NCBI GenBank assembly: GCA_021648725.1
Contig: JAKISF010000001.1
Coordinates: 62,001 to 126,000, forward strand
Reading direction: 5' to 3'
DNA length: 64,000 nucleotides
From: Bacteroidales bacterium
GTDB taxonomy: Bacteria > Bacteroidota > Bacteroidia > Bacteroidales > JAADGE01
Shown: piece by piece, positions 28,707-49,000 of the stretch
Layout: each line of letters opens with the position of its first letter
Position numbering within the stretch: the stretch's first letter is position 1
Program-made: the position numbers and the translations under genes
The notes under the pieces: generated by a model
What the model was told of the DNA's origin: nothing
The model's input: only the letters and a program-made list of their open reading frames with translations
The model's database searches: none

Positions 28707-31700
28707 ATGAAAAAGTATCTCATTCTTACTTTGTTTATTAGCTTAGGATATTTACTGAGCGCACAAACTTTACCGACTGTTAATAATGAAACGGTCAGTA
28801 CACTCGAAGACAATGATAAGGTCTTTGTTGTCGGAGATTTTCCTTCCTATTTTGATGCCGACGGAGACCCGTTTACTGATATTCGTATAAGAGGGTTGGA
28901 ATCTGTAGGAATATTGTATTATGATGCTGATGGTGACAATATAATTGATGCCGGCGAAGATGTGGCATTATGGGATGTAATCTTAGTTGCGGATATTCCC
29001 AGATTAAAATTCAGACCTAACCCGGATGAAAACGGTGTCGGGTACGACAGTTTTGACTTTCAGGTTAATGACGGAAATGACGGTTATAGTGCAATACGTA
29101 CAATGACAATAGATGTTACTCCCGTAAATGATGAACCCTCCTTTACGGCAGGGGCAAATCAAACGGTTTTGGAAGATGCCGGACCGCAAAATGTTCCGAA
29201 TTGGGCAACAGCTATTAGTGTAGGACCTGCGAATGAGGCAGGACAAACACCAAGTTTTAATGTTTCAAATAATAATAACGGACTTTTTTCAGCTCAACCG
29301 GCTATTGATGCTGCCGGAAATTTAACTTATACATCAGCTGCTAATGCGTCAGGATTTGCCACGGTTACAGTAAGTGTCAGTGATGACGGAGGAATTGCAA
29401 ATGGCGGTGATGATACAAGTCCAGGTCAAAATTTTACTATTACGATAACAGCAGTAAATGATTTACCCACAGGTGCAGATAACACTGTAAGTTGTTTTGA
29501 AAATGCAGGAGTAACCTTTGCTGCAGCACATTTCGGATATGCAGATAATGACGGAGATGCTTTTGCTCAGATTCGAGTTACTACTGTTCCGGGTTTAGGG
29601 ACATTATGGATAGATACTGATAATGACGGTACTGTTAACGGTGCAGAAGTTCCCTTGGCATCAGGCAATGTTGTTTTAATAGCAGACATTAATGCAAGTT
29701 TATTAAAATACATTCCTTTACCGGGAGAAAACGGAAGTCCTTATACAACTTGGGATTTTGAAGTTCATGACGGAACTGTTTATAGTGCAACATCTTATAC
29801 AATGACAATTGATGTCTTACCAGTAAATAGTGAGCCTTCTTTTATTATCGGAGCAGACCAAGTTGTAAATGAAGATGCAGGAGCACAGAATGTTGTAGGA
29901 TGGGCAACATCAATAAGTGCAGGTGCAGCAGATGAAGAGCCACCTATTCAAACACTAACATTTTTTGTTTCAAATAATAATAACGGTTTATTTTCTGTTC
30001 AACCCGGTGTAGATGCAACAACAGGTAATCTTACATACACACCTGCTGCAAATATATTCGGTGTTGCAACAGTAACAATATATTTAACAGATGACGGCGG
30101 AACAGCAAATGGAGGAGATGACACAAGCCCTTCTCAAAATTTTACAATAACTGTAAATTCTGTAAATGATGCACCGACATCTACTGATAATTCTGTAAAT
30201 GTATTTGAAAATTCAGTTCTAACATTAGTTACTGCTCATTTTAATTATTCAGATGTTGAATCAGATCCCTTTACTCAAATTGAAACCACAACAGTTCCCG
30301 GTCTTGGAACTTTATGGATAGATACAAATAGTGACGGAATTATTAACGGAGGAGAAGTTCCTCTTGCTCCCGGAAATATTGTTCCTATTGCCGATATTAG
30401 CGGTAATCGTTTAAAATTTATACCTAATCCCAACGAAAACGGAAGCCCTTATACAACTTTTGATTTTAAAGTACACGATGGTATTGAATTCAGTACATTA
30501 AGTTATACGATGACAATAAATGTTTTGGCAGTTAATAGTGAACCTTCTTTTACAAAAGGTGCTGACCAAGTCGTAAATGAAGATGCCGGAGCTCAAACTG
30601 TTGCCGGATGGGCAACAGCTATTGACCCGGGAGGTGCAGGAGAAGGCGGACAAGTATTGACGTTTAATGTTTCAAACTCTCTGCCGGCATTATTTTCTGT
30701 TCAACCTGCAGTTGATGCAGTAACCGGAGACTTAACCTATACACCGGCACCAAATGCAAATGGAGTAGCAACTGTCAGTATATATTTAACAGATGACGGA
30801 GGAACAGCTAACGGTGGAGATGATACAAGTCCTACACAAACCTTTACGATTACGGTAAATCCTGTAAATGATGTTCCTGTTGTTACTGCAAATAACCCTT
30901 TAAATATTAATGAAGGAGACATTAACCAACTTATTTCGACAGCACTGTTAGAAGTTACTGATGTTGACAATACTCCTGCCGAAATTGAATATACAATTAC
31001 AACTGTTCCTGCTGCAGGAACTCTTAAATTAAGTGGCTTGCCTCTTGGTTTAAATGATACTTATACTCAGGCAGATATAAATGCAAATGCTTTAACATAT
31101 TCACATGATGGTAGTGAAGGTACTCCCGATTCATATTTTTTTACAGTTATTGACGGGGCAGGAGGATCAATAGGGTCAACTCAATTTATAATCAATATTG
31201 CTCCTGTGAATGATGCTCCTATATTTACTTCTTCCCCTGTTACAACCGGAGATCAACTTGTTTTTTACATATATAATATAACAACTACAGATGCCGAGGG
31301 CGATCCTCTTGTAATTGCTCCTGTCACAATACCTGCATGGTTGGCGTTAGTAGATAACGGTGACGGAACAGCAACCCTGTCGGGAACACCTCCCGGAGGA
31401 ACCCCGTTAAATAACCCGATAACAATTTCAGTTTCTGACGGTATTGCACCGCCGGTTACACAATCATGGAATCTTATTATTTCTTCAAGTGTTACTGCTG
31501 ATGCAGGCCCCGATGATATAACTTGCAATAATAATGAATATACCTTAAATGCAACAGCTGCTCCGGTAGGTTATACCGGAACATGGACAGTTATTGGCGG
31601 TTCCGGTGTTTTTGCAAATGCTAATTTGCCGAACACACTTGTTACCGGTTTAGATAACGGACCGGCTCCTTTTAATACAAATACATTCAGGTGGACACTT

Positions 31701-34700
31701 TCTAACGGAATTCCCGCTGAAGATGTCTGGGATGATGTTGTAATAACAAACAATACAGTTGTTGCTTCGGTAACTGATATTAATAATGTATGCGGAACTA
31801 ACGCAATATTACAAGCTGATAATGCTCTTAATCCCGGTGAAACAGGATTATGGACAGTTGAAGGTGCACCGATACCACTACCTGTAATTGCAAATCCAAA
31901 TAATAGAACTACTGCTGTTTCAGGTCTTCAATATAATGTAAATCAATTCAGATGGACATTAACAAAAGGAACTTGTTCTGATTTTGCAATAATGAATGTT
32001 AATGTAATTGAAGTATATGCTACTGCAGGGGGGCCTGCTGAAATTTGTTCGGAACCTTTTACTATATTAGGTAACGACCCTACAATTTTGGGTGGTACAG
32101 GCGTATGGACAGTCGGTGCCGGGAGTGGTGTTTTTGCAAATGCCAATGCTCCTACAACAACTGTAACCGGTTCTCATCAAGATGTTCAAAATGAATATGT
32201 TTGGACAGTAACAGTAAACGGTTGTTCTGCACAAGCGTCTGTATTTGTTGAAAATAATATTCCTACAACTGCGGTTATTACTACTCCAAATCCAAGTACA
32301 TCTTGTGACGGAATATATACAATCTCAGCTGTTCCTGCTGATGCAACAGACCCTAATGAAACAGGTTATTGGACAACAGTTACTCCCGGGGTTGTAATTA
32401 CAAATGCAAATTTAGCTACAACAGGTGTAACCGGCTTACAAGAGGGTGCAAATTTATTTACATGGCATATTACAAACGGAACATGTCCCGAATCTACTGC
32501 AGATGTAACAATAAATTATTTTTTTCCTCCTACAGTTGATGCCGGACCTGATGCAATAATATGCACGGACGATTACAATCTTGCAGCAACTCCTTTAGAC
32601 GCAGGAGAAACAGGATTGTGGACTTTTACAACCGGAGGTATGGGTAGTACGATTATAAATCCTACTTCAAATACAACTCAAGTAATTAATCTACAAAGCG
32701 GTTTAAATGTTTTACAATGGACAGTTTCACATGATATATGTTCATCAGATGATGTAGTTGAAATTACAAATATGTCTGTTGATGCAATTATCTCTACAAC
32801 AGATCCTTTAATCTCTTGTACAGATCCTTCACCTTTAATTACGGCAAATATTCCTTCATCACAAGATATTGCAAATCCCGCAACACCTGCAACAGGCTCT
32901 TGGTCTGTATTGTCAGGAGGTTCAATTGTTGATAATCCCTTGTCTTGGAATACAACTGTAAGTAACCTTGATGCAGGTAATAACGATTATATTTGGACGA
33001 TAACAAACGGAACTTGCACGGATACAGATACAATTACCGTAATAAACAGTATTCCCACACAAGCTTATGCCGGAAAAGATACAATAGTATGCAGTACATC
33101 ATTACCGAATTTAAACGGAAATAATTATAATTCTCTTGTAGAAATAGGTTTCTGGAGGAGAATTGCCGGAAATGCTACTATTACTGATATTTCTCTTGCA
33201 AATACTTCGGTTACAAATTTAGATTATTACTGTACTCCTTGGACTCCTAATTGGTGGACTAATGTTGCAGCGGTAAATGTATTCGAATGGGTAATACGCA
33301 GAGGAACTTGTGAATCAACAGATCAAGTTAGTGTTATGAACGGGTTACCTGAAACAATTGACGCAGGTTTAGATCAAACAGTTTGTGATAATGTTGTTAA
33401 TCTTGATGCTCTTGATGAAGCTTCATGTGCAGATGATCATTGGTGGGAACAACTTCCGGATGTAGGTAATTATATTGATCCGTTAACAGGAGCATTTATC
33501 CCTGATAACGATTTGAACATGCCGTTTAATGTACATGTTGATAATATTCAAGATGGTATGACTCAATTTGTATGGCATAAAAGAAATAACTTCTTTGATT
33601 CTCTCGGAAATCCTATTCAATGCGAATTAACTGATACCGTAGAAATAACAAGCCTTGGTCTGGTAGAAGATGTACAGGCAGGCCCGGAAGATGCAACCTG
33701 TGAAAATTGGTATCAATTAAATGCAACAAATCCTTCTACAATTTTTACTGCAGGACCTCCTTTTGATGTTGTTTCAGGACAATGGACATTAATTTTCGGG
33801 GCGGGTAATTTTGACGATGACACATATTATAATACAACAGTCAGAAATATGGCTGCCTATGATAATATTTACAGATGGACAGTAACCAATCTTACAAAAG
33901 GATGTATATTAACAGATGATGTTTATATACATAGTGCAAGACCTTCTAATGCGACTGCAGGTCCTGATGATGTAACTTGTAATGATTTTGCAGTTCTTTC
34001 CTCAAATGTTCCCGTAAGATATACTTCCGCATACTGGACAGTTGCTGTAGGAGGCTCAACAATTATTCAAAATTCTTGTACAGGCTTTACTTGTGATGCG
34101 ATAGCAACAAATATTGCCGACAGTTTAAATATTTATATATGGCATGTTGTTAATGAATATACCGGTGGTTTTGGAGGTTATGATGCCGCAAATCCTCTTA
34201 CTTGCGAAGTAATTGACTCAACTGTAATTATATACAGAGGTGTTACGGCAGATGCAGGTGTTGATATATATGAATGTGGAGACTTTACACAGTTAAATGC
34301 AAATGACCCTGCATGGAATACAGGTGTTTGGACAGGTTCCGGGACTTTTGATGATTCCGGTACAAATACAAGTACTTTATTTAATGATATAGTTCGCGGG
34401 CTAACACCAGGTAAAAACACATTTACATGGACAATATCAAATGAAACATGTAGTGCATCTGACAATCTTGTCGTGTTTGGTTTATTGCCTCCGACTCCTT
34501 ATGCAAATGTTGATCAAACAATTTGTAGCGGAACTGTAAATTTAAACGGAAATAATGTTGCTAATACATGGACTGTAGTTGATCCGGTTCCGCCTAATCC
34601 TGTTTGGCAAGAAGCAATAGCTACAGGTTACTGGACATCTACAAATCCGCTCGTAACCTTTACAAATGCAAGTAACTTTAATACAACTGCAAGCGGAATA

Positions 34701-37700
34701 AGTATGCAAACTGAAGATGCATTTATATGGCATTCTGTTAATAATTTTACAGATTATGTTGCAGGAATTACTCGTACATGTGAATTGGTTGATACTATGT
34801 TAGTATATAACAATTCTGTTACATCAACAGCAGGAAGTGATATTTTTGAATGCGGAATTGATTTAGTTGCTAATTCATTTAATCTTAATGCTGTACCTGC
34901 TGTTGCTCCTATGTCAGGTGTTTGGTCTCAAATTTCAGGACCGGCTTCAACAATCTTGACACCGGCATCTCCGACAACATTAGTTACAAATGTATTTCAA
35001 GATAATGACTACATTTATCAATGGACGGTTTCAGCAACCAGAAATACCGTAACTTGTACTGCTGCTGATAATATGTTGGTAGAAGTCAGGATTCCCAGTA
35101 ATTCAGTTGTTAACCCCTCTACTCTTGAAGTATGTGTAAATCAGGCTCCATTAGTCGGTAATATTCCTCTCAGCGGAATAGGAACATGGTCGTCAGCATC
35201 AGGTTCACCCGGAACAATTGATGACCCTTCAAGCAGTGTTACATTTGTAGATTTAATTCAAAATGGAGTAAGTCAGTGGCAATGGACAATTGACAGACAA
35301 GGTTGTACATCTAATGATATTATCACTGTTACCAATAATACAGTAACAGCAGATGCTGATTTGGCACTGACAGATCCTAATGCAACAGATATCTGCTTCC
35401 CCGAATATGTATTAAATGCAACAGACCCTGATATATTTAATGTTGCATTACCCAATGCAACAGGTATTTGGTTGGCTAATCTCGGAACAACAACTTTTGA
35501 TAATAATACAGTATATAATACAACAGTCAGAAATTTAAGTTCAGCATTACCTAATATTCTTACTTGGACAATTACGAAAGGTTCATGTATTGAATCAAGT
35601 CAGTTAACAATTAATAATAACGAATTTTTTGTTGACGCTGATGTAAATGAAAACCCAAACTTACTTGAAACATGTGACGGAAACATTACCCTTGCAGGGG
35701 AGCAGCCGGGAGTAGGCGGAACAGGTTTTTGGGAAATAATAATCGGCGGCGGAACATTTGTAAATACAACATTATACAATACAGTTGTTATTACAGTTCC
35801 TAAACCTTTCAGCAGATATGTGTGGCATGTAAACAGAATTGGTTGTAATGCTACTGACACAGTCAGAGTAGATAACAATCAAGTATTCTCTAATGCAGGT
35901 TTTGATCAAACAGTTTGTAATAATTTTGCTACATTAAACGGAGGTATTCCCAATGCCGGTGAATTAGGACAATGGACTGTTACAAACGGTGGTGGAACAG
36001 TTACGACTCCTTCAGCTTATAATTCAGGAGTTACAAATATGGCACAAGGTCAAAATACTTTTGTTTGGACAATTTCAAAAGGTAATTGTTCTGCATTTAG
36101 TAGTGTTGAAATTATAAATAATGAACCAAGTGATTTTAATGTTGAACCGGATAGAGAGGTTTGTGGAATAAATGATGCAATTACAGTTAATCCGGGTGCT
36201 ATAGGAACAGGTGTTTGGACAATTTCGCAAGGAGGTGCTTTTACAGCAATTGTTGATAATACTGCTACTAATACTAATGTAACAGATTTACAACCGGGCT
36301 TGAATACTTTTGTATGGACTGCAACAAACGGAACTTGTACAAAAGTAGGAGATGTAACTTTGACTAATAATATGGTAATATCTGATGCCGGTGTTCCTCA
36401 ATTTGTTTGTGCAGACAGCACAAATTTACTTGCAGCTGAACCTTCAATAAACTATCCTTTCCAAGGAACAGGAATATGGACTGTTGTAACAGGAAGTTCA
36501 ACAGTTGTTACGGTAACAGCTTATAATTCGCAGGTAATTAGCTTAGACCCGGGTCTTAATACATTCAGATGGAATATGTCTCTCGGTACTTGTACTGATT
36601 TTGATGATGCAGATGTAACAAATAATGCGGTACAAGCTAACGCTTCAAATCAAACAGTTTGTACTGATGCTGCTACATTTGACGGAAATAATCCCGGAAG
36701 TTCAAATGGTTTATGGACATTAGTCGGATCCTCGGGAACACCCACTATTACAACACCTACATTAAATATTTCAACGGTAACCGGCCTTGGAACAGGTGTT
36801 AATACATTTAGATGGTTAGTTAATAATGCTGCCGGTTGTGCAGATAGTATAGATATTCAGATTGATAACGGAGAATTTATTACTTCTGCCGGACCTGATC
36901 AATCGCTTTGCAGCACAACTGCTACAATGGGTGCTCAGAATCACGGAGTAGGTTATAACGGTTATTGGTATGTTGTTGCCGGTGGAGCAACTGTTACAAA
37001 TTCTGCTCAATTTGATTCGCCCGTTACCGGATTAACACCGGGAAATAATGTGTTTAGGTGGGTAGTAAACTCAGTTGATTGCATGGCTTTTGATGAAGTC
37101 ATAATACAAAATAATTTACCGACGGATGCTGTTATTGTAACGCCTATTGTAACAAACAGAGAAGTTTGCACTAATTCAGCAGCTGTTGAAGGTACAAATC
37201 CTGTATTCGGAATCGGAGTTTGGACTGTTTCTACCTCTATTTTGGGAACTTATTTTACAAATAGTACAAGTTATCAAACAGTCATTAATGATTTAAGACC
37301 CGTAAATAATGTATTGACATGGACAATCTCAAACGGAACTTGTTCTTCTGTTGATCAAATTACTATTGTTAATAATGAAGTAGCGTCTGTAGCCGGATCG
37401 GCTCAAACATTATGTTTTGATAATACATCTTTGGCAGCCACAGATCCGTCAACAATATATCCTAATCAAGGAACGGGATACTGGACAAATATCAGTGGTA
37501 ATGTTGCTGTTATAACAAATTCATTAGCATGGAACACCGGAGTAACAAATCTTCCTCTCGGAACTACAACATTCCGTTGGACTGTTGAAAAAGGTATTTG
37601 TTCTGTCTTTGACGAAGTTATAATTGCCAACAATTCAGCAACAGCATCAGCGACAAATCAAAGTGATTGTAATTCCGTCTTTACTTTAAACGGAAACGAT

Positions 37701-40700
37701 CCTTCAACATTCGGAGGAACAGGCTATTGGGAGATTGTAGGCGGCGGCAGCGGAACAATAACTGCTCCGAGCACACAATATAATACAACAGTAACCGGAA
37801 TACCGAACGGAGTAACAACGACCTTACGTTGGAATGTAGATAACGGTACATGTACAGATAATATTGAAGTAACCGTAACTAATAATAATTTCAGTATAGA
37901 TGCCGGAGCAGCTCAAACAATATGTTCTTCAAATGCTACAATGAACGGTGATTCTCCCGGAACCGGAACCGGATATTGGACATTAGTATCAGGCTCCGGA
38001 ATTTTTAGTAATTCTTTGGCTAATAATACAACTGTTTCAGGCGTAGGACAGGGAACTAATTTGTATAGTTGGACAGTTACACGCGGAGTTTGTACAAATT
38101 CAGATAATGTAACTATTATAAACAGTTCACCGAGTACGGCACAGATTACAGGACCGGTTATAACGGAAACCTGTGACGGAACAATAAGTTTAACTGCAAA
38201 TATGCCGTCACCGTATTATGCGGATAATCAGTATTGGCAAATTGTAAGCGGAGGCGGAACATTTAATAATCCTTCGACAAGTTTTACAATGGATGTCACA
38301 AATATGAATCCCGGAACTAATCTTTTCCAATGGACTATTGAAAGAGGAATTTGTCCTTCAAGTACGGATGTTATTACTATAGTTAATAATGAGGTAACAG
38401 CTGTTGCAGGAGGTAACCAAATAATATGTAGTGATAATACATTCTTAAATGCAACAGATCCTACCGTAATTTATCCTAATCAAGGAATAGGGTATTGGAC
38501 TAACTTAAGTAGTAACAGTGCATTAATTACAAATTCTTTATTACAAAATACTGCGGTAAGTAATTTACCTATCGGTACTACAACTTTCCAGTGGACAGTT
38601 GAATTAGGAAGTTGTACAGCAAATGATTTATCACAAATAACTAACAGCTCGGTAACGGCAACTGCAAACAATCAAACAGGCTGTGACGGAGTATTTACTT
38701 TAGACGGGAATGATCCTTCAACATTTGCAGGTACAGGTTATTGGCAAGTTATTGCAGGAAGCGGAACAATTACTGTTCCGAGTACACAATATAATACAAC
38801 AATTACAGGTGTTGCATATAATGCTACATCAGCGTTACGTTGGACGGTTGATAACGGAACATGCTCAAACAGTGTCGATATTACAGTTGAAAATACCGGA
38901 TTCCCAATTAGTGCAGGTCCTGATGTAACTCAATGTAGTGATACATATACATTTAGTGCCGATGATGCTGCTCCGGGAACAGGATATTGGACTTTAGTAG
39001 GCGGCGGAGGTACTATTTCAAATTTAAGCCAATTTGATGCAGTTGTTTCCGGATTACCACAAGGAAGTAATGTTTTCAGATGGACTGTAACAAGAGGTTC
39101 TTGTACAAACTTTGATGAGATAACAGTTGAAAATACAAATCCTGATGTAGCATTAATTACTGCACCCGGACCGACAAACAGAGAAATCTGTTCAAATTCA
39201 GTTTCGATTCAAGCAAATGTTCCGGCATTCGGAACAGGACAATGGTCTGTTAGTTCAGGAACAGCAACGTTTGTTGATGATACTAACTTCTCAACAGTTG
39301 CAAACGGTTTAGCTCCCGGTTCCAATACTTTAACTTGGACAATCTCAAACGGTTCGTGTACAAGTTCGGCAGATTTAATTATAACTAACAGTGAAGTTGC
39401 TTCAGAGGCAGGTCCTAATCAGATTTTATGTGCTGATGCTACTGTTCTTAATGCTCTTAATGTTAGTACAACCTATCCTTTCCAAGGAGTAGGGCATTGG
39501 ACAAATGTAAGTAGTAACGGTGCCGTAATTACGAATTCTTTAGCAGAGAATACAGCTGTAAGTAATCTGCCGGTAGGAACAACAACTTTTATGTGGACTG
39601 TTGAAAACAGTATATGTTCAACAAATGATATAGTGCTTATTTCGAATAATACAGTAACAGCAACAGCTCTTGATGCACAAACTTGTAATTCTGATATACT
39701 GTCATTAACCGGAAATACTCCCGGCCCGGGAGAAACAGGAACATGGACATGTTTCACTGCGGGTGTTACATTTGATGATTCAAATGTTTATAATACAGCT
39801 GCTCATAATTTAGGAGTCGGTATTAACAATTTTGTTTGGACTATAAATAATGCAGATTGCTCAACTGATGCAAATATTGTTGTTACCTCAATTAATCCTC
39901 TTGCTGATGCAGGACCAGATCAAAATAATTTATGTGATAACTTTACATTTATGGGTGCTGTCAATCCGACACCTGGAACAGGTGTTTGGTCTGTTCTTTC
40001 AGGTTTGGGAACATTTGCCGATGCTTCTGATAATGTAACTTATGTCTCCGGTATTCAACAAGGAATTAATACATACAGATGGACTGTTACAGAAAGTGGC
40101 TGTGTTCGAACTTCTGATGTTACAATTATTAACAACTTACCATCGGTAGGGGCAGGCTCTGACCAATCAACATGTAATAATAACGTTACATTGTCAGGTA
40201 CAAATCCGGGTGGCGGAGAGTCCGGTGTCTGGAATCAAATTGCCGGTATTACTGCAATAATTACAAACAGTGTTCAATTTAATACAACAGTTACCGGCTT
40301 GTCAAACGGAGCAAATATTTTTGAATGGACTATTTCAAATGCTTTATGTAGTGCAAGTGATGAAGTTACAATAACATTCAACGAAGTAATTGCAGATGCA
40401 GGTCTTGATAATTCTACTTGTAACGGAACATATGCTCTTATGGCAGTTGATCCTTCTCCGGGAACGGGTTATTGGGAAGCTGTCGGTGCCGGAACATTCT
40501 CAGATATATCTATGTTTAATTCAAATGTAACAGGTTTAAATAACGGACCCAATACTTTAAGATGGCATCAATCTTATGCAGGATGTTCAGACTATGATGA
40601 TGTAGTTATAACTAATAATGAAGTTTCCGTTAATGCCGGTTTAGACCAAGCATTATGTACAGATAATACAATATTGGTAGGAAATAATCCGGGAGCAACC

Positions 40701-43700
40701 GGCTCAGGAAATTGGACTCGTTCAGGCGGAAGCGGAACAATTACAATCCCGAGTTTTTACAATTCTCCCGTAACAGGTTTAAGTAAAGGGATAAATATAT
40801 TTACATGGACAATAACTGACGGACCTTGTAGTAACTCAGACGAGGTTATTATAAATAACGATGAAATAACCGATGTTAATGCAGGGGTAGATCAAAATGT
40901 TTGTGATACTTATGCAACTTTGGCGGCACTTGCTCCGCAATCCGGTGAATCCGGATATTGGACAGTTGCAGGTGGCACAGCCGTATTTAATAATTCAGAT
41001 TCTTATACAACAGATGTTACAGGTTTAGTTCAAGGAGACAACAGATTAGTCTGGACTTTAACTAACGGAATCTGTAATGCTTCTGATACAGTTGTTGTTA
41101 CAAATAATTCTCCGACTGTTGCATTGGTTTCTCCTGATGCTGAGATATGCAGTAATATTTATACATTAGTAGGTAATATACCGGGAGGAGGAGAATCCGG
41201 GATTTGGACTAAAGAATTTGGTGCATCTGCAACAATTGTTAATCCTACATCTAACATTACTACAGCACTTTCAATAGGTGCGGGTTCTAATACTTTCAGG
41301 TGGACAATATCTAATGCATTATGTGATTCTTATGATGATATTGTTATTACAAATAATACAATAACAACTGATGCAGGTTTAGATGCTTCATTATGTACAG
41401 ATACAACGGTATTATCTGCTGATAATCCTGCTCCGGGAATCGGGCTGTGGACGGTCGTAAATTCAGCAGGAACACCGATATTTGATAATGCTTCTGCTTA
41501 TAACACAATTGTAAGAAATCTTGCAAACGGCTCTAATATATTCAAATGGACAGCTACAAAAGGCGGTTGTTCAGCTTGGGATATTGTTACTATTTCAAAC
41601 GATATTCCTACAACAGCTGATGCAGGTCCGGACGAAACCGTATGTGACGGAACTGTTAATTTGAAGGCAAATAATCCTTCTGTAGGAACAGGTGTTTGGA
41701 CAAGGTTAGGAGGTGCGGGTGTAATTGCAAATCCAAGTAATTATAATACACTTGTAACAGGTTTAAGCTCAGGCGGAAATACTTTCAGGTGGACAATTAC
41801 CGAAGGTATGTGTGAATCATACAGTGATGTATTAATTACAAATGAACTTGTATATGCATCGGCAGGAATGGATGATAATATTTGCGGTAACTCTTACGGT
41901 CCGTTAAACGGTAATCAACCGGGAGCAGGCGAAACAGGAATTTGGACTGTAACAGGCGGTACAGGAATTTTTGCAAATCCGACTTTATATAATACAAGTA
42001 TAAGCGGTTTATCTCAAAGCGAAAATGTATTAACTTGGACAGTTACAAGAGGTTCATGTTCAAATTCTGCAAATGTAAGTATTTTTGATAATACCCCTTC
42101 TCCTGCTTCTGTCAGCAATGACCAAGAAGTTTGTGATGATTTTACTGTAATTGCGGGTAATCCGCCGACAACCGGTGTAGGAGTATGGTCGGTTGCGGCA
42201 GGTAGCGGAGATTTTGATAACTCTCTTGCAAATACTACAACTGTCAGAAATATAGGCCCTGATATTAATATTTTCAGATGGACAATTACAAACGGTACAT
42301 GTACGAATGCAGCTGATATTACTGTAACAAATAATTCTGTAACAGCTGTAGTAGGCGACAGTATATTTGTTTGCGGAACTGATGCATACTTAAACGGTAA
42401 TGAACCGACAGCAGGACAAACAGGAGTTTGGACAAGAACTGCCGGAACAGGTATTATTGTGAACAGTACATTATATAATACTGCTGTTACCAACTTAAAT
42501 GTAGGTATCAATAAATTCAGATGGTCAATAAGTAACGGAACTTGTAGTGCTTATGCAGATTTAGTTGTTACTAATAATTTATATGATGCTACAGCAAGTG
42601 TTGCAGGACCGACTGTAATTTGTGTTGATTCTGCTGATTTACTCGGCAATATTCCGATACAAGGTAGTACAGGACATTGGGAAGTATTTGCAGGTGGTGG
42701 TGTGTTTGATGATTTTACCAGCCCGACAGCAAGAATAAATAATTTAAATAAAGGAGAAAATACTTTAAGATGGTTTATAACAAAAGCAGGATGTTCAAAC
42801 TTTGCAGATGTCTCGATTACTAATAATATGGTAAGTGCATTAGCCGGAGCTGATGTTATAACATGCGGAAACGATGCTAATTTATCTGCGAATGAATTAT
42901 TGCCGGCTGAAAACGGTTTGTGGACATTGGTTGCAGGTACTGGTACAATTCTTACTCCCTCTAATAATGAGACAATTATAACAGGACAAAGCTCAGGTGT
43001 AAGTGTTTACAGATGGACTGTTTGGGGCAACGGATGTATGGATGATGATATTGTACAAGTAAATGAGAATTCATTCTTAACAGAAGCAGGACCTGCTCAA
43101 ACTGTTTGTAATACAGATGCAACTCTTACAGGACAAGATCCGACACCGGGAACAGGTATTTGGACAACAGGTTCAGGAGTTACGATAAATACACCCACGA
43201 ATTATATAACAACAGTTACGGGATTACAAGATAATTCTCCTCATACATTTAGATGGACAGTAAGTAAAAACGGTTGTTCGTCTTGGGACGAGGTAGTTAT
43301 TACAAATAACTTAGTTCATGCTTATGCAGGAACAGACCAGTCTGTTTGTTTTTCAAATGCTGTTTTAGGTGCTCAAAACCCTGTTGCAGGAAACGGACTT
43401 TGGAATATAACATCCGGTTCAGGTATAATTACGACACCGAGCTATTATGCTTCTACAGTTACAGGTTTAAATGCAGGTACAATTACATTAACTTGGACTG
43501 TAAGTCACGAAAATTGCACAGATGCCGATAATATGATTATTATTAATAATATGGTAGAAGCAACTGCAGGTGCAAATCAAGCAGTTTGTGCAGATTTTAC
43601 TAATTTAACGGGAGATCAAGCACAAGCCGGAGGATACGGTATATGGACAACTGCCGGAGGACCGGGCATCGTTCAAACTCCGTCAGCATTTAATACATTA

Positions 43701-45974
43701 GTAACAGGCTTACAAAGAGGTGTAAATACTTTCCGTTGGACTGTTTATGAAAATTCATGTGACAACGGAGGAGATTTAGTACAAGTTATTAATAATACAT
43801 TTGATGCATTTGCAGGTTTAGATCAAACTTTAAATCCGCTTCAAACAAATACATATTTCAATGCTGAATTGTTAGCAAATCAAACAGGACAATGGTCAAT
43901 ATTATCCGGTAGCGGAAATATACATACTGACACAAGTCCTACATCTTATGTTTACAATATGCCTACAGGTACTAATATATTTACTTGGACAGTACATAAT
44001 AATGTTACAGGATGTAATGATGACGATGATGTTGCTATTATTGTTGCTAATTTTGTACCGTATGCAGGGGAAGATCAAGTTGTTTGTGTTGACACAGCTA
44101 AATTAAATGCAAGGGTTGAAACAGGTGCAAGTTCTCATACATGGTCAATTGTTAGCGGCGGCGGAGTGTTTGATGATATCTATGATTCGAATACAGTAGT
44201 AAGAGGGATTAATCACGGAGCAAATGTTTACAGATGGACGGTTACTTTTATCGGTTATTCAAATTATGATGATGTTGTTATTTTCAATGATTCAATATTT
44301 GTAAGTGCCGGTGATGATGTTGTTACATGTGACCGTGAGCACATTATGAATGCTCAACAGATTTTAGATCCGGACAGTGTTTGGTGGTCTCCGGTCGGAA
44401 TAGGAGGAGGTACAATTGTTACCAATACAGCTTGGAATACGCATATAACAGGTTTGGAGCCAGGAGACAGCTATTTTGAGTGGTATGTAAGTAACGGAAA
44501 TTGTATATCTCGTGATACAGTAATGTTACATTATAATTTACCGCCGATTGCTCAATTTGAAACTGATCCGACAGAATTCTGTGCACCTGCCTTAGTTACA
44601 ATTAACAATACATCAACTGCTTATGGCGGCTATAATATACCGACTGAATTCCATTGGGTAATTGAAGATTTTGCTATGCCGAACACGTACGATGTAAATG
44701 ATGATGTATTATATACATTTACAAATACGGCGGAGTGGGATTCAATATACACCATAAGATTAGTTGCAATTGATACATTTACAATGTGTACAGATACATT
44801 CTATTCAACTGTAACTGCATCAGCAGGACCCAAGGTTGAGTTTGAGGTAAGACCGAATGAACCGCAAAGAATTCCTAATGCAATCTTTACATTCCAAAAT
44901 AAGAGTGCAACTGATTTGATTTCTTATGAATGGGATTTCGGAAATGCTGATAACAGATATGATACATACTATGTAGGTTCTTTCGATTATGAATATCAAA
45001 TTGCAGGTACTTATGTTGTTACATTAGAAGGAGTAAGCGGAGGACAATGTACAGGAACTTATACAGATACTGTTGTAGTACTTCCTGCTTGTCCGTTCTC
45101 TTGGAATGAGGGCAGTACAGTAGCGGAAGGATGTCAAGAATTAACGGTTGAGTTCTATAATGATGTTTACTACGCAGATAATCAGAGCTTTACAAAATGG
45201 CATTTCTACGGACCTAATGATGATGTACCTGCCGGTGTGGACAGAGATACTTCGACTTTTGTAAATGACCCTGTTTATACTTATCCTGAACCGGGGAATT
45301 ATCATCCGTATATTACGGCATGGAATGCATCATGCGGTTCAGAAACAATGCCTTATTATACAAGAGTTGATACTGTAATAGTTTATACAAAACCGATTGT
45401 TGATTTTGATGTTGCTCCGAGATTAATTATGTTGCCCGATCAATTATTAACATGTTTTAATTATTCTGAATATGGTGACAGGTATTTCTGGAACTTCGGA
45501 GATTCTATTACAGCCGATAATTATCTTGAATTCCCGCAACATCAATATACTGAACCGGGAGCATATGATATTTCACTGGCTGTTTGGACAGTAAATGATT
45601 GCTTTGCCTCGGATACATTATATAATATTGTATATGTTGAAGAAGAAGGATCAATTGAGTTTCCGAATGCGTTTACACCTAGTCCGAACGGTTCTAACGG
45701 AGGTGTTTATCCTTGCGGAGATAAATATACTGTGGATAAAGATAATTTAAATGATGTATTTTATCCGAAACAAAGCGGTGTTGTAACTTACAATCTTGAA
45801 ATTTATAACAGATGGGGAGAAAAAATCTTTGTCAGTGATGATTTATGTGTAGGTTGGGACGGCTATGTTAAAGGAGTGTTAGCACCGCAAGATGTTTATG
45901 TCTGGAAAGTATCCGTAATTTATAAAAACGGTGAACCGGAAAGAAAATACGGAAGTGTTACTTTATTGAGATAA
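28707..45974 (+). CDS. Giant T9SS-exported repeat protein (5755 residues), probable surface adhesin
   Basis: A single uninterrupted frame of 17.3 kb. A signal peptide (1-20, ending LLSAQ) is followed by three cadherin-like units (21-722) with EF-hand-like loops. Two further Ig/cadherin-like domains run to about 928. Then come 51 tandem domains of about 85 residues (929-5280), PKD-like domains (5281-5648) and a type B T9SS sorting domain (5649-5755) with the FPNAFTP and YNRWGEKIF signatures. The protein should cross the outer membrane by T9SS and stay on the surface or be released. By size and layout it resembles gliding or attachment adhesins such as SprB, but its repeats are not SprB repeats. 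Thr, Asn, Gly and Val dominate. It ends at a strong terminator and has no operon partner. Confidence 0.92.
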   Translation: MKKYLILTLFISLGYLLSAQTLPTVNNETVSTLEDNDKVFVVGDFPSYFDADGDPFTDIRIRGLESVGILYYDADGDNIIDAGEDVALWDVILVADIPRLKFRPNPDENGVGYDSFDFQVNDGNDGYSAIRTMTIDVTPVNDEPSFTAGANQTVLEDAGPQNVPNWATAISVGPANEAGQTPSFNVSNNNNGLFSAQPAIDAAGNLTYTSAANASGFATVTVSVSDDGGIANGGDDTSPGQNFTITITAVNDLPTGADNTVSCFENAGVTFAAAHFGYADNDGDAFAQIRVTTVPGLGTLWIDTDNDGTVNGAEVPLASGNVVLIADINASLLKYIPLPGENGSPYTTWDFEVHDGTVYSATSYTMTIDVLPVNSEPSFIIGADQVVNEDAGAQNVVGWATSISAGAADEEPPIQTLTFFVSNNNNGLFSVQPGVDATTGNLTYTPAANIFGVATVTIYLTDDGGTANGGDDTSPSQNFTITVNSVNDAPTSTDNSVNVFENSVLTLVTAHFNYSDVESDPFTQIETTTVPGLGTLWIDTNSDGIINGGEVPLAPGNIVPIADISGNRLKFIPNPNENGSPYTTFDFKVHDGIEFSTLSYTMTINVLAVNSEPSFTKGADQVVNEDAGAQTVAGWATAIDPGGAGEGGQVLTFNVSNSLPALFSVQPAVDAVTGDLTYTPAPNANGVATVSIYLTDDGGTANGGDDTSPTQTFTITVNPVNDVPVVTANNPLNINEGDINQLISTALLEVTDVDNTPAEIEYTITTVPAAGTLKLSGLPLGLNDTYTQADINANALTYSHDGSEGTPDSYFFTVIDGAGGSIGSTQFIINIAPVNDAPIFTSSPVTTGDQLVFYIYNITTTDAEGDPLVIAPVTIPAWLALVDNGDGTATLSGTPPGGTPLNNPITISVSDGIAPPVTQSWNLIISSSVTADAGPDDITCNNNEYTLNATAAPVGYTGTWTVIGGSGVFANANLPNTLVTGLDNGPAPFNTNTFRWTLSNGIPAEDVWDDVVITNNTVVASVTDINNVCGTNAILQADNALNPGETGLWTVEGAPIPLPVIANPNNRTTAVSGLQYNVNQFRWTLTKGTCSDFAIMNVNVIEVYATAGGPAEICSEPFTILGNDPTILGGTGVWTVGAGSGVFANANAPTTTVTGSHQDVQNEYVWTVTVNGCSAQASVFVENNIPTTAVITTPNPSTSCDGIYTISAVPADATDPNETGYWTTVTPGVVITNANLATTGVTGLQEGANLFTWHITNGTCPESTADVTINYFFPPTVDAGPDAIICTDDYNLAATPLDAGETGLWTFTTGGMGSTIINPTSNTTQVINLQSGLNVLQWTVSHDICSSDDVVEITNMSVDAIISTTDPLISCTDPSPLITANIPSSQDIANPATPATGSWSVLSGGSIVDNPLSWNTTVSNLDAGNNDYIWTITNGTCTDTDTITVINSIPTQAYAGKDTIVCSTSLPNLNGNNYNSLVEIGFWRRIAGNATITDISLANTSVTNLDYYCTPWTPNWWTNVAAVNVFEWVIRRGTCESTDQVSVMNGLPETIDAGLDQTVCDNVVNLDALDEASCADDHWWEQLPDVGNYIDPLTGAFIPDNDLNMPFNVHVDNIQDGMTQFVWHKRNNFFDSLGNPIQCELTDTVEITSLGLVEDVQAGPEDATCENWYQLNATNPSTIFTAGPPFDVVSGQWTLIFGAGNFDDDTYYNTTVRNMAAYDNIYRWTVTNLTKGCILTDDVYIHSARPSNATAGPDDVTCNDFAVLSSNVPVRYTSAYWTVAVGGSTIIQNSCTGFTCDAIATNIADSLNIYIWHVVNEYTGGFGGYDAANPLTCEVIDSTVIIYRGVTADAGVDIYECGDFTQLNANDPAWNTGVWTGSGTFDDSGTNTSTLFNDIVRGLTPGKNTFTWTISNETCSASDNLVVFGLLPPTPYANVDQTICSGTVNLNGNNVANTWTVVDPVPPNPVWQEAIATGYWTSTNPLVTFTNASNFNTTASGISMQTEDAFIWHSVNNFTDYVAGITRTCELVDTMLVYNNSVTSTAGSDIFECGIDLVANSFNLNAVPAVAPMSGVWSQISGPASTILTPASPTTLVTNVFQDNDYIYQWTVSATRNTVTCTAADNMLVEVRIPSNSVVNPSTLEVCVNQAPLVGNIPLSGIGTWSSASGSPGTIDDPSSSVTFVDLIQNGVSQWQWTIDRQGCTSNDIITVTNNTVTADADLALTDPNATDICFPEYVLNATDPDIFNVALPNATGIWLANLGTTTFDNNTVYNTTVRNLSSALPNILTWTITKGSCIESSQLTINNNEFFVDADVNENPNLLETCDGNITLAGEQPGVGGTGFWEIIIGGGTFVNTTLYNTVVITVPKPFSRYVWHVNRIGCNATDTVRVDNNQVFSNAGFDQTVCNNFATLNGGIPNAGELGQWTVTNGGGTVTTPSAYNSGVTNMAQGQNTFVWTISKGNCSAFSSVEIINNEPSDFNVEPDREVCGINDAITVNPGAIGTGVWTISQGGAFTAIVDNTATNTNVTDLQPGLNTFVWTATNGTCTKVGDVTLTNNMVISDAGVPQFVCADSTNLLAAEPSINYPFQGTGIWTVVTGSSTVVTVTAYNSQVISLDPGLNTFRWNMSLGTCTDFDDADVTNNAVQANASNQTVCTDAATFDGNNPGSSNGLWTLVGSSGTPTITTPTLNISTVTGLGTGVNTFRWLVNNAAGCADSIDIQIDNGEFITSAGPDQSLCSTTATMGAQNHGVGYNGYWYVVAGGATVTNSAQFDSPVTGLTPGNNVFRWVVNSVDCMAFDEVIIQNNLPTDAVIVTPIVTNREVCTNSAAVEGTNPVFGIGVWTVSTSILGTYFTNSTSYQTVINDLRPVNNVLTWTISNGTCSSVDQITIVNNEVASVAGSAQTLCFDNTSLAATDPSTIYPNQGTGYWTNISGNVAVITNSLAWNTGVTNLPLGTTTFRWTVEKGICSVFDEVIIANNSATASATNQSDCNSVFTLNGNDPSTFGGTGYWEIVGGGSGTITAPSTQYNTTVTGIPNGVTTTLRWNVDNGTCTDNIEVTVTNNNFSIDAGAAQTICSSNATMNGDSPGTGTGYWTLVSGSGIFSNSLANNTTVSGVGQGTNLYSWTVTRGVCTNSDNVTIINSSPSTAQITGPVITETCDGTISLTANMPSPYYADNQYWQIVSGGGTFNNPSTSFTMDVTNMNPGTNLFQWTIERGICPSSTDVITIVNNEVTAVAGGNQIICSDNTFLNATDPTVIYPNQGIGYWTNLSSNSALITNSLLQNTAVSNLPIGTTTFQWTVELGSCTANDLSQITNSSVTATANNQTGCDGVFTLDGNDPSTFAGTGYWQVIAGSGTITVPSTQYNTTITGVAYNATSALRWTVDNGTCSNSVDITVENTGFPISAGPDVTQCSDTYTFSADDAAPGTGYWTLVGGGGTISNLSQFDAVVSGLPQGSNVFRWTVTRGSCTNFDEITVENTNPDVALITAPGPTNREICSNSVSIQANVPAFGTGQWSVSSGTATFVDDTNFSTVANGLAPGSNTLTWTISNGSCTSSADLIITNSEVASEAGPNQILCADATVLNALNVSTTYPFQGVGHWTNVSSNGAVITNSLAENTAVSNLPVGTTTFMWTVENSICSTNDIVLISNNTVTATALDAQTCNSDILSLTGNTPGPGETGTWTCFTAGVTFDDSNVYNTAAHNLGVGINNFVWTINNADCSTDANIVVTSINPLADAGPDQNNLCDNFTFMGAVNPTPGTGVWSVLSGLGTFADASDNVTYVSGIQQGINTYRWTVTESGCVRTSDVTIINNLPSVGAGSDQSTCNNNVTLSGTNPGGGESGVWNQIAGITAIITNSVQFNTTVTGLSNGANIFEWTISNALCSASDEVTITFNEVIADAGLDNSTCNGTYALMAVDPSPGTGYWEAVGAGTFSDISMFNSNVTGLNNGPNTLRWHQSYAGCSDYDDVVITNNEVSVNAGLDQALCTDNTILVGNNPGATGSGNWTRSGGSGTITIPSFYNSPVTGLSKGINIFTWTITDGPCSNSDEVIINNDEITDVNAGVDQNVCDTYATLAALAPQSGESGYWTVAGGTAVFNNSDSYTTDVTGLVQGDNRLVWTLTNGICNASDTVVVTNNSPTVALVSPDAEICSNIYTLVGNIPGGGESGIWTKEFGASATIVNPTSNITTALSIGAGSNTFRWTISNALCDSYDDIVITNNTITTDAGLDASLCTDTTVLSADNPAPGIGLWTVVNSAGTPIFDNASAYNTIVRNLANGSNIFKWTATKGGCSAWDIVTISNDIPTTADAGPDETVCDGTVNLKANNPSVGTGVWTRLGGAGVIANPSNYNTLVTGLSSGGNTFRWTITEGMCESYSDVLITNELVYASAGMDDNICGNSYGPLNGNQPGAGETGIWTVTGGTGIFANPTLYNTSISGLSQSENVLTWTVTRGSCSNSANVSIFDNTPSPASVSNDQEVCDDFTVIAGNPPTTGVGVWSVAAGSGDFDNSLANTTTVRNIGPDINIFRWTITNGTCTNAADITVTNNSVTAVVGDSIFVCGTDAYLNGNEPTAGQTGVWTRTAGTGIIVNSTLYNTAVTNLNVGINKFRWSISNGTCSAYADLVVTNNLYDATASVAGPTVICVDSADLLGNIPIQGSTGHWEVFAGGGVFDDFTSPTARINNLNKGENTLRWFITKAGCSNFADVSITNNMVSALAGADVITCGNDANLSANELLPAENGLWTLVAGTGTILTPSNNETIITGQSSGVSVYRWTVWGNGCMDDDIVQVNENSFLTEAGPAQTVCNTDATLTGQDPTPGTGIWTTGSGVTINTPTNYITTVTGLQDNSPHTFRWTVSKNGCSSWDEVVITNNLVHAYAGTDQSVCFSNAVLGAQNPVAGNGLWNITSGSGIITTPSYYASTVTGLNAGTITLTWTVSHENCTDADNMIIINNMVEATAGANQAVCADFTNLTGDQAQAGGYGIWTTAGGPGIVQTPSAFNTLVTGLQRGVNTFRWTVYENSCDNGGDLVQVINNTFDAFAGLDQTLNPLQTNTYFNAELLANQTGQWSILSGSGNIHTDTSPTSYVYNMPTGTNIFTWTVHNNVTGCNDDDDVAIIVANFVPYAGEDQVVCVDTAKLNARVETGASSHTWSIVSGGGVFDDIYDSNTVVRGINHGANVYRWTVTFIGYSNYDDVVIFNDSIFVSAGDDVVTCDREHIMNAQQILDPDSVWWSPVGIGGGTIVTNTAWNTHITGLEPGDSYFEWYVSNGNCISRDTVMLHYNLPPIAQFETDPTEFCAPALVTINNTSTAYGGYNIPTEFHWVIEDFAMPNTYDVNDDVLYTFTNTAEWDSIYTIRLVAIDTFTMCTDTFYSTVTASAGPKVEFEVRPNEPQRIPNAIFTFQNKSATDLISYEWDFGNADNRYDTYYVGSFDYEYQIAGTYVVTLEGVSGGQCTGTYTDTVVVLPACPFSWNEGSTVAEGCQELTVEFYNDVYYADNQSFTKWHFYGPNDDVPAGVDRDTSTFVNDPVYTYPEPGNYHPYITAWNASCGSETMPYYTRVDTVIVYTKPIVDFDVAPRLIMLPDQLLTCFNYSEYGDRYFWNFGDSITADNYLEFPQHQYTEPGAYDISLAVWTVNDCFASDTLYNIVYVEEEGSIEFPNAFTPSPNGSNGGVYPCGDKYTVDKDNLNDVFYPKQSGVVTYNLEIYNRWGEKIFVSDDLCVGWDGYVKGVLAPQDVYVWKVSVIYKNGEPERKYGSVTLLR
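28767..30872 (+). repeat. Three cadherin-like tandem units with EF-hand-like loops
   Basis: Three units of 232, 236 and 234 residues start at 28767, 29463 and 30171. Each holds one domain with an acidic 12-residue loop, then one with the VNEDAG and DDGG-x-ANGGDDTSP motifs, closing in a PVND-type linker. Loops lie at 28923-28958 (DADGDNIIDAGE), 29613-29648 (DTDNDGTVNGAE) and 30321-30356 (DTNSDGIINGGE). Positions 1, 3, 5 and 12 fit calcium-binding EF-hand loops except for Asn3 in the third. Calcium-dependent stiffening is inferred from cadherin-like proteins. Confidence 0.75.
31491..44546 (+). repeat. Array of 51 tandem ~85-residue domains in the giant protein
   Basis: By eye I count 51 copies over 4352 residues. 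A consensus copy opens with AG-x-D-Q-x-x-C, continues with L-x-x-NxPxxGxTGxWT, then G-x-F/I, YNTxVxGL, G-x-N-x-FxWT and a G-x-C, and closes VxITNNxV. Most copies have exactly two cysteines, one near residue 9 and one near 65, suggesting one intradomain disulfide. Lengths vary most in the first 16 copies and settle at 80-86 residues afterwards. I do not recognise the unit as a named domain; an immunoglobulin-like beta sandwich is likely. Confidence 0.85.
36138..40145 (+). repeat. Four-fold super-repeat of about 1 kb, each of four domains
   Basis: Units at 36138-37127, 37128-38138, 38139-39149 and 39150-40145 are 330, 337, 337 and 332 residues. Each contains four distinct domain types in the same order. 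Type A has no AG opening and usually carries REVC or a similar motif. Type B carries a YP[NF]QG-x-G motif after its DP or similar. Type C has a short opening such as TATANNQT and usually GNDPSTF. Type D opens with an AGP-like motif and has GTGYWTLV or similar. Type B of units 2-4 shares VTNLPLGTTTFRW-like wording. DNA identity is clearly lower than protein similarity, so the duplication looks old. Confidence 0.75.
44547..45650 (+). other. PKD-like domains before the sorting signal
   Basis: About four PKD-like domains of 85-100 residues lie between the repeat array and the T9SS domain. PKD hallmarks are visible in copies 2 and 4: SYEWDFGNAD with a later YEYQIAGTYVVTLE, and RYFWNFGDS with HQYTEPGAYDISL. 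Copies 1 and 3 are more diverged. PKD domains commonly form a rigid stalk near the surface anchor. Confidence 0.75.
45651..45971 (+). other. T9SS type B C-terminal sorting domain
   Basis: The last 107 residues match the gliding-motility-associated C-terminal domain: FPNAFTPSPNG, a LNDVFYP block, LEIYNRWGEKIF, GWDGYVKG and a final VWKVSVIYKNGE followed by GSVTLLR. Known type B domains route SprB-like proteins through the type IX machinery and usually need a PorP/SprF-like partner, which is not encoded next to this gene. Confidence 0.9.
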
Positions 45975-46046: not shown

Positions 46047-49000
46047 TTATAATTCCCTGACTAATGCTCCCCATTTTTTGTCAATTACAAAATTATGTTT
46101 TAGATAATAGTTTCCGAATAAGAAATGAGCTTTTATTGTTTTGATTCCTTGTGCTTTCATTCTTGTGAAAAAATCTTCCATCATTGCCGAGCCTATTCCT
46201 TTACCGTGTAATGGAGATGTAACAGCCATTCCGTCAATTAATACAACATTTTCATCTAATTCTTTATAGCATAAACCACCGATAACACGTTCATTTGAGT
46301 CTGTAAGAATATAGTGTCTATCCGGTTTTGAAATTTCTTTAGGATAATTCTCTTTAAAAAATAATTTATAAAGTTCACCTACTTCAAACGCTTCAAGAGG
46401 TTCTCTCATAGTGTATTCAGTATTGTTTTTGTCTTTTAAAATTGAACGGACGATAACATGTTCGTCTTTTTTTTCTCCTATTGTTAAAATATCGACTTTT
46501 TGTTTTGTTTTAATTCCCGGGAAAACCATTTTTCCGAAAATATTCTTTTCTGAACTGTTCTTTAATACAGATTGTAAATCAGAAAGTTCTGTTAGTTGTA
46601 TTGGTAAATGATTTATATTTTCTGACATTTTATTTATCAGTATATCGAAATATGAAACAACTTCTTTGTCTGAATCTTTAAAAAATGTTTCTCTGTAAAA
46701 TTTATATCTGATAATTTCCGGAAATTTCCCTAAAGCATATAAATCAAACAGTTCTGCTATGGTTTGCTCTTTAGCTGTGATACTTGCTTTTTTACTTTTC
46801 TTAACCCAATCAGAATATCTGTCAATTGCATTAAAAAGAGCTAAGGGTAAATAAATTCTTCCTTTAAAATCTTTTAAATATTCTTTTAATGTTTCATATA
46901 TTTCAAGTTCATTTTCTTTTAAAGCAGGTTTGTTTTCGTATTCTGAAATAAGCTTTTTAAAAAGAAGTCTTGATTTTTTTTCTCCCAAAGCTTCAACACA
47001 CGCATGATATATCCATCTTGTTTTTATATGTTTTTTTAATAATGGATAATGTGCTGTTGCTTTTTTATAAAAGTTTTTTAACATTGCCGAAATTAAAGAG
47101 CTGATTTGTGCATTTTTATTCCAACCGGAAAGAGAAATAACTACTGAATTATCAGAGAAGTCATTTTCAGGAAGTGCAACATTTCCGGGAGATACAAAAC
47201 CGGGCATTATTTCTTGATTGCTGTTGTGCCAAACTCTGAAGAATGCACTCATTGAGCGGATATATATTTTTCTCCACGTATTTGCTTGTTCTATTTGTCC
47301 GAATGCTTGCATTTCTGCAATAGCTCTTATTTTGTCCCATGCCGTAAGCATACTTAAATAACCCGAAATAATAATTTTTTCAGAAGGATTACTACATCCG
47401 AATATTGTAAGGGAAGGACTGTCAAAGGGGTATCCGCCTATTGCAATCATTCTGTATAAAGTTTCGAGTCCTTTTTGAGTTTTTAATTTTTCATCAATTG
47501 CAATATGCAAATCGTAATGTTTACCTTTTTTTGTATTAATGCTCATTCTGTAATGCTTTGTGTTTCTGTAACTTTTAACACGTGAAACCCAAATGTTATT
47601 TTTTGCAATTAATTTAAGATCGAAATTGTATTCGTCATAAATTAAAATAAGTGCTTGTTTAAGAGTATTACTTGAAGCTAATTTTGTTGTCAGTTCTTTT
47701 TTATTATCTTCTGAAATTCCTTCGTCAAAAACTAATAAAGATTTCCATTCTTTTTCAGTGTAAATTTTTGATGTTTTGCTTATTTGTTTTTTGAATCCTT
47801 CAAATAATTCATAAAAATATTTATGTGCTTTTTTTGATAAAACAGGTTCATTTTTTAACAGCATCCATGAAGCAAATTCGGCTCTGATTGATTTGTAATA
47901 TTTCGGATGATTTATTCCGAAGTTCAGAAGCAGCCTGAAAATTGTGTCGAATTGTTTTCTTGTTTGTTTGTCGGCAGGCCATTTCATTTCATTTCTGTAA
48001 TGAAACATTCGTTTTCTTAAGCTGTCAAAATGTTGAAAAGCAAATGTGTTTTTTGCTAAAGTTCTTATTGACTGCTCATTAAGAAATGTTTTGCCTGAAT
48101 TAATAAATGCAGGAAGAAGTTCTGAGAAGTTAGGCTCCGGATCTTTTGTTAATAAAATTCGATATGCACTAACTCTGATTTCTTCATCTTTATGACAGGC
48201 TAAGGCTTCTAATCTTCTGCGAATAATTTCTGCTTTATTTTTATCAGATTGGGTAAATATTTTTTCAATTTGTTTAAGGCTGATTAACGATGTTTTAGTG
48301 TCAGAGTGTAATGTTTCTGATAGTAAGGTGTTTAGAAAGGTAAGGTCAGCATCAATAATATTTAAAATTTGAGGTATTTCTCCCGGGTGGTAAGTTCTTA
48401 TATCTTTTTTCGGAACACGTAATTGAGGAGAAATATTCTTTAAAGGTAAATCAAAGCTTACCTTACAAGGTGAAAAAGATATAAGTTCAGGGTTTCCTGC
48501 CCAAAGTTTGGGTTGTCTGACAATTATTCCCAAATCAACTTTTTTATCATATATTTTATATTCTAAATCTCCGATTAAATAAATATTTTCTTTATAAGAT
48601 TTTTGTATTCTTAATTTTTGTTTAGTTACTTTATTGTAGATGCCTTCTTTATCAGAAATTATATCAGTTTCTAATATTCCGATATCTCTGTAGAACCATC
48701 TGGGAATTACAATTTCAAAATTTTTCTTTTTAATAAGAATAAAATCTTTTTCATATAACTTACTTATTAATTCTGAAAAGTTTTTTTCTATATTCTTTCT
48801 TTTAAATGAACCTTTTGCGGTTATCTCCCCTTTTTCTTTTAAAAATTCTCTGTTTGCTATGCTGAAATTTATTACGCGTTCATACGGTGCCGAATCTTTA
48901 TTTGCTGTTGTAATTATTTGGTGGAAATATTCATTAATATTATCATCTTTACTTCCGGAAGTTAATACCGGATCTTCAAAATCGGGAACAATTAAAAGCA

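Follow-up and report, generated by a model that had tools for sequence, protein, structure and literature searches.

A predicted T9SS type B substrate of 5755 residues from a Bacteroidales bacterium carries 51 tandem K319L-like PKD domains

The DNA analysed here, a stretch of 64,000 nucleotides from a Bacteroidales contig (hereafter, the window), encodes a protein of 5755 residues. Its repeats are of a known PKD subtype, and we place it as a new and very large addition to an established class, the T9SS type B fibrillar adhesins. We think it probable that this protein is exported by the T9SS and tethered to the outer membrane as a fibrillar adhesin, with PKD domains forming a rigid stalk and a tip that evolves faster; its export, its anchoring partner and its adhesive function are predicted. 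The main interest of the protein is its link to the solved base of GhpA, together with a fixed, position-conserved array of 51 units.

Architecture of the giant protein

The giant gene is a single frame on the forward strand, with an ATG at 28707 and a stop codon that ends at 45974. Its parts, in window coordinates and with the evidence for each of them, are the following:

28707..45974, + strand: giant open reading frame, T9SS type B substrate with a PKD-array stalk, 5755 aa (translation, profile matches)
28707..28766, + strand: Sec-type signal peptide, MKKYLILTLFISLGYLLSAQ (read from sequence)
28767..31487, + strand: head, residues 21-927, cadherin-like, Big_9 and tandem-95 domains, presumed tip (profile matches)
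31488..44537, + strand: 51 tandem K319L-like PKD units, residues 928-5277 (unit profile, fold match)
37377..40136, + strand: section of the array showing a higher-order repeat of four units (unit-versus-unit identity)
43803..44537, + strand: units 49-51, the last three of the array (cysteine losses recurring in orthologues)
44538..45686, + strand: tail, residues 5278-5660, PKD_4/PKD-type domains (Pfam scan)
45687..45971, + strand: type B T9SS C-terminal sorting domain (CHU_C), residues 5661-5755 (profile matches)

A previous sequence-only reading of this DNA had described an intact 17.3-kb frame with a cadherin-like head, 51 two-cysteine copies of about 85 residues making up 75% of the protein, and a type B T9SS signal, and this description was borne out throughout. 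The translation contains zero internal stops, and the head matched Cadherin_3, Cadherin_4 and Cadherin_5, Big_9 and the NCBIfam tandem-95 model. Using a profile trained on the array, we found 51 strong units (24-97 bits) over residues 928-5277; these 4350 residues make up 75.6% of the protein, and the units recur on average every 85.4 residues. There was also a weak 52nd match (residues 5282-5371, 10.7 bits), which we assigned to the PKD_4-type tail. When this tail was used as a query against the named genomes, no match was obtained. Regarding the C-terminal 95 residues, they gave 34-35 bits with CHU_C (cut-off 27) and 24-33 bits with TIGR04131, just under its cut-off of 35.

In the alignment of the units, two tryptophans are invariant and two cysteines nearly invariant. 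By inspection, 48 of the 51 units have both cysteines, while units 1, 49 and 50 each lack one of them; unit 49 is missing the first and unit 50 the second, and the orthologues show the same losses. Counting cysteines with the normal model gave 1174 units with both, 30 and 14 units with one, and zero double losses, and a cysteine-blind model gave 24 double losses, with a weak trend (p = 0.098). Judging from the strand order, the two cysteines may form an intradomain disulfide. The array also shows a higher-order repeat with a period of four units, in which units 23/27/31, 24/28 and 25/29 are pairwise 49-65% identical. We regard this four-unit repeat, at window 37377-40136, as the trace of a block duplication.

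The repeat unit is a divergent PKD domain

The repeat unit is a divergent PKD subtype missed by PF00801, and it is of the same kind as the units in the base of GhpA. In a Pfam scan, residues 3432-5755 matched PF22352 (K319L-like PKD) with 52.9 bits (cut-off 27), and the same family gave 55.5 bits with a paralogue on contig C10 of the same genome and 83 bits with a named Bacteroidales homologue. Single units matched PF22352 weakly: most of the 51 fell under the Pfam cut-off, and 16 reached E <= 1. Searching the PDB with the unit profile, we retrieved GhpA with E = 6.7e-115 and 11 strong copies at its residues 4757-5716, as well as the PKD domain of human KIAA1837/KIAA0319L (2yrl, E = 5.8e-5).

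Structure prediction agreed with these matches. The AlphaFold model of one unit (pLDDT 97.2) has a PKD beta-sandwich fold, and Foldseek placed the GhpA base at the top of its matches (TM 0.89, rmsd 1.6, 36% identity), followed by 2yrl (TM 0.79); 2e7m gave TM 0.77. A model of three tandem units (pLDDT 97.4, pTM 0.80) again had the GhpA base as its top match, with a moderate superposition of the whole chain (TM 0.54, rmsd 6.7). Fold and above-cut-off array profile are hence shared with the K319L-like PKD family (PF22352; KIAA0319/KIAA0319L, PDB 2e7m and 2yrl), but where 2yrl aligns with the bacterial units it shows no counterpart of their near-invariant cysteine pair.

The sequence-only reading had taken the unit as unclassified, perhaps a new domain family, and as neither SprB nor PKD. 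The first part of that exclusion holds, since a scan of the giant protein for PF13573 (the SprB repeat) gave no match, while the second is contradicted by the PF22352 match; PKD was missed because a unit taken by itself has in most cases diverged too far to reach the cut-off. A new domain family was rejected on the above-cut-off match to PF22352, the profile match to GhpA and KIAA0319L and the PKD fold. Profile search and structure prediction of one copy, both suggested in that reading, thus lead to known PKD domains, and the Bacteroidota survey it also proposed counts against a new family, as the unit is already common: we found it in 56 of the 396 genomes sampled across the phylum.

The unit was also present in 46 of 60 close relatives, and its consensus was found at 32 named loci, including Crocinitomix, Runella, Pedobacter, Chitinophaga, Labilibaculum and many MAGs. 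A literature search on PKD arrays in Bacteroidota found nothing specific. Some arrays are longer still: in G450, a relative from the same order (L080-L083), one frame has at least 8359 codons and 98 PKD units and another at least 7914 codons and 97 units; both frames end at contig or stretch ends, so these lengths are lower bounds. The paralogue on contig C10 (L068:4951-9270) has 1440 aa and 16 PKD units of the same kind; unlike the giant protein, it lacks a cadherin head and its sorting tail is of type A (PF18962), not type B. According to this, the PKD stalk pairs with both types of sorting signal. Besides, a contig labelled as a Thiomargarita sp. MAG (L039) holds about 65 such units, and is probably a mis-binned Bacteroidota contig.

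The array is largely conserved in order and number

The repeat was present in all 13 genus relatives searched (13/13). In three of them the frame is open over 5612-5616 codons and encodes 49 units; in a fourth (G406) a single in-frame stop separates 44 units from 7 more, 51 in all. This stop, after unit 44 and before unit 45, maps to about 7719-7721 of L076 (minus strand) and could reflect a pseudogene, a sequencing error or a phase-variable state. Most of the 51 units are the reciprocal best match of the orthologue unit at the same position, mostly with 55-90% identity. A few array positions are replaced or missing (units 16-18 and 34-37 against one relative, for example), and this explains the difference between 51 and 49 units. 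In the signal peptide, M1, K2, K3, T8, L9, F10, S12, A19 and Q20 are unchanged across four orthologues.

The order of the locus is conserved as fumC-sucD-GNAT-giant gene-AMP-binding, with each neighbour kept wherever the contig of the relative extends that far. The AMP-binding neighbour (window 46047-50621, minus strand) is a 1524-aa ligase with a C-terminal GNAT domain, and it is kept beside the giant gene in relatives. Elsewhere in the window, a gene at 21567-23405 (plus strand) encodes a protein in which LysM repeats are joined to a domain resembling periplasmic binding proteins. An assembly artefact, which the sequence-only reading had considered, was rejected on the syntenic genus orthologues with 49, 49, 49 and 51 units. 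Nor is the array a collapsed or mis-joined repeat, because its units are too different from each other (mean identity 33% within the giant protein).

We then looked at selection in the closest pair of relatives (G398 and G399), where omega was 0.073 in the array, 0.080 in the tail and 0.185 in the head. In this pair dS was higher in the head too (0.56 vs 0.28), so recombination in the head is possible. The identity of the head to its genus orthologues is 38-65%. Given the positional orthology of most units, the conserved locus and the low omega, the array is old, has kept nearly the same length and evolves under purifying selection, and the head is the part that changes fastest.

One could argue that such a protein forms a passive coat or a spacer around the cell, its array working without any specific ligand. 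A repetitive array of beta-sandwiches would suit this role, and the profile scan of the head found no recognised ligand-binding domain. Yet the head is kept by purifying selection while evolving faster than the stalk, and the number and order of the units are largely conserved, and we regard a passive coat as improbable.

Export and anchoring

The genome encodes SprA (E = 9.5e-168), and contains eight PorP/SprF genes and 16 CHU_C places. Going by their coordinates, five PorP/SprF genes lie next to a CHU_C gene, and the other three, on C3, C4 and C5, have none beside them. A cognate porP/sprF directly downstream is common, though not universal, in type B substrates; the genome search found no PorP/SprF gene adjoining the giant gene, the nearest ones being on other contigs. 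Since none adjoins it, one of the three unlinked genes would be its likeliest partner. PorP/SprF barrels bind type B CTDs, export them and keep them at the surface, and the proteins with such CTDs are adhesins, either known or predicted (PMC9143113, PMC12618676); orphan type B substrates may share one unlinked shuttle (PMC12618676).

In the fibrillar adhesin that we propose, the Sec pathway would bring the giant protein to the periplasm by the signal peptide read from its sequence, and the T9SS translocon, of which SprA is present, would export it by means of the type B domain at its C-terminus. As in other type B proteins, a PorP/SprF-like barrel would tether this C-terminus to the outer membrane, its gene lying elsewhere, and the 51 PKD domains would fold separately and stack as a stiff stalk. 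A PKD domain usually measures 3.5-4 nm in length; on this basis the extended stalk may reach, very roughly, 180-200 nm. Such a stalk would set the cadherin-like head far from the cell, where it may bind a surface, a polymer or another cell.

Comparison with SprB

The sequence-only reading had proposed a surface adhesin or a motility filament. The role of surface adhesin or filament fits the evidence, while membership in the SprB class was rejected for the giant protein, which has no SprB repeats. Its likeness to SprB of Flavobacterium johnsoniae lies in being a giant, repetitive surface filament protein with a type B CTD, SprB having 6497 aa (PMC9870892). In SprB, however, the repeat is PF13573, sprF lies directly downstream and the protein is experimentally tied to gliding. 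As a gliding adhesin of this kind, the giant protein would be a filament carried along a helical GldJ track, pulling the cell over surfaces. Such a motility role is possible because the genome encodes a full-length GldJ-like protein (423 bits, under the curated cut-off of 458); moreover, some type B CTDs, orphan ones included, target the gliding track of F. johnsoniae (PMC12618676). Against this, the giant protein lacks PF13573 repeats and an adjacent SprF gene, and other proteins of its own genome do have the repeats: two or three of them, on contigs C7, C16 and C35, which are better SprB candidates. We hence consider a SprB-like gliding function unlikely, although it is the least improbable of the alternatives to the fibrillar adhesin.

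The sodium:alanine symporter (PF01235) encoded at window 59689-61530 (plus strand) follows a start that resembles a signal peptide and an additional domain at the N-terminus. This domain gave 25 bits with the SprB repeat in Pfam (below the cut-off of 28) and 29.4 bits in the genome search (above it), making the protein an unusual fusion of a SprB-like domain and a transporter.

Comparison with GhpA

According to a review and to PDB titles, GhpA is the grappling hook protein of Aureispira, forms heptamers and works with the T6SS, which is needed for ixotrophic killing (PMC11205867). GhpA (Aureispira sp. CCB-QB1; PDB 9flp, 9fls, 9fly and others) is also a T9SS substrate and of similar size (5898 vs 5755 aa). 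It has the same subtype of PKD unit and, at the cell-proximal end, the same order, with the PKD array first and then a type B CTD that matches that of the giant protein. The CTD profile built from the giant protein and its relatives matched GhpA 5810-5885 with E = 3.5e-10. In contrast, GhpA has 11 such units where the giant protein has 51, neither the sequence nor the profile of the head gave any match to GhpA, and the GhpA neck matched the unit only as a general Ig-like fold. GhpA is linked to a T6SS, whereas no sheath gene was found here: profile searches gave no TssC (Bacteroidetes T6SS type) in the source genome or 21 relatives, with a model that detects 6 of 118 other Bacteroidota, and no VipB in the source genome, with a model that detects E. 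coli. Lacking both a head match and a sheath gene, GhpA orthology was rejected.

These observations also bear on a grappling-hook-like capture, in which the chains would assemble through their PKD base like the GhpA heptamer and catch prey or partner cells. The shared unit subtype with its 11 GhpA copies, the fold match to the GhpA base, the common order of array and CTD and the similar length all speak for it. The unlike head, the absence of TssC and VipB and the moderate superposition of three units on the GhpA base speak against it, and the shared unit is weak evidence of shared function because it is so widespread. All in all, we judge this capture mechanism very unlikely. There is likewise little chance that the giant protein is a multimeric grappling-hook-like device in bacteria apparently without a T6SS, with PKD array plus type B CTD as a general capture chassis in Bacteroidota; if this were true, GhpA would be one specialised case of a general chassis for long-range capture organelles.

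Discussion

A large and poorly annotated class of Bacteroidota surface proteins gains a solved structural footing, since the repeat is of the PKD subtype of the GhpA base. The module formed by a PKD stalk and a type B CTD offers a testable model for how very long T9SS filaments may be built, in which a conserved stalk would carry a faster-changing tip.
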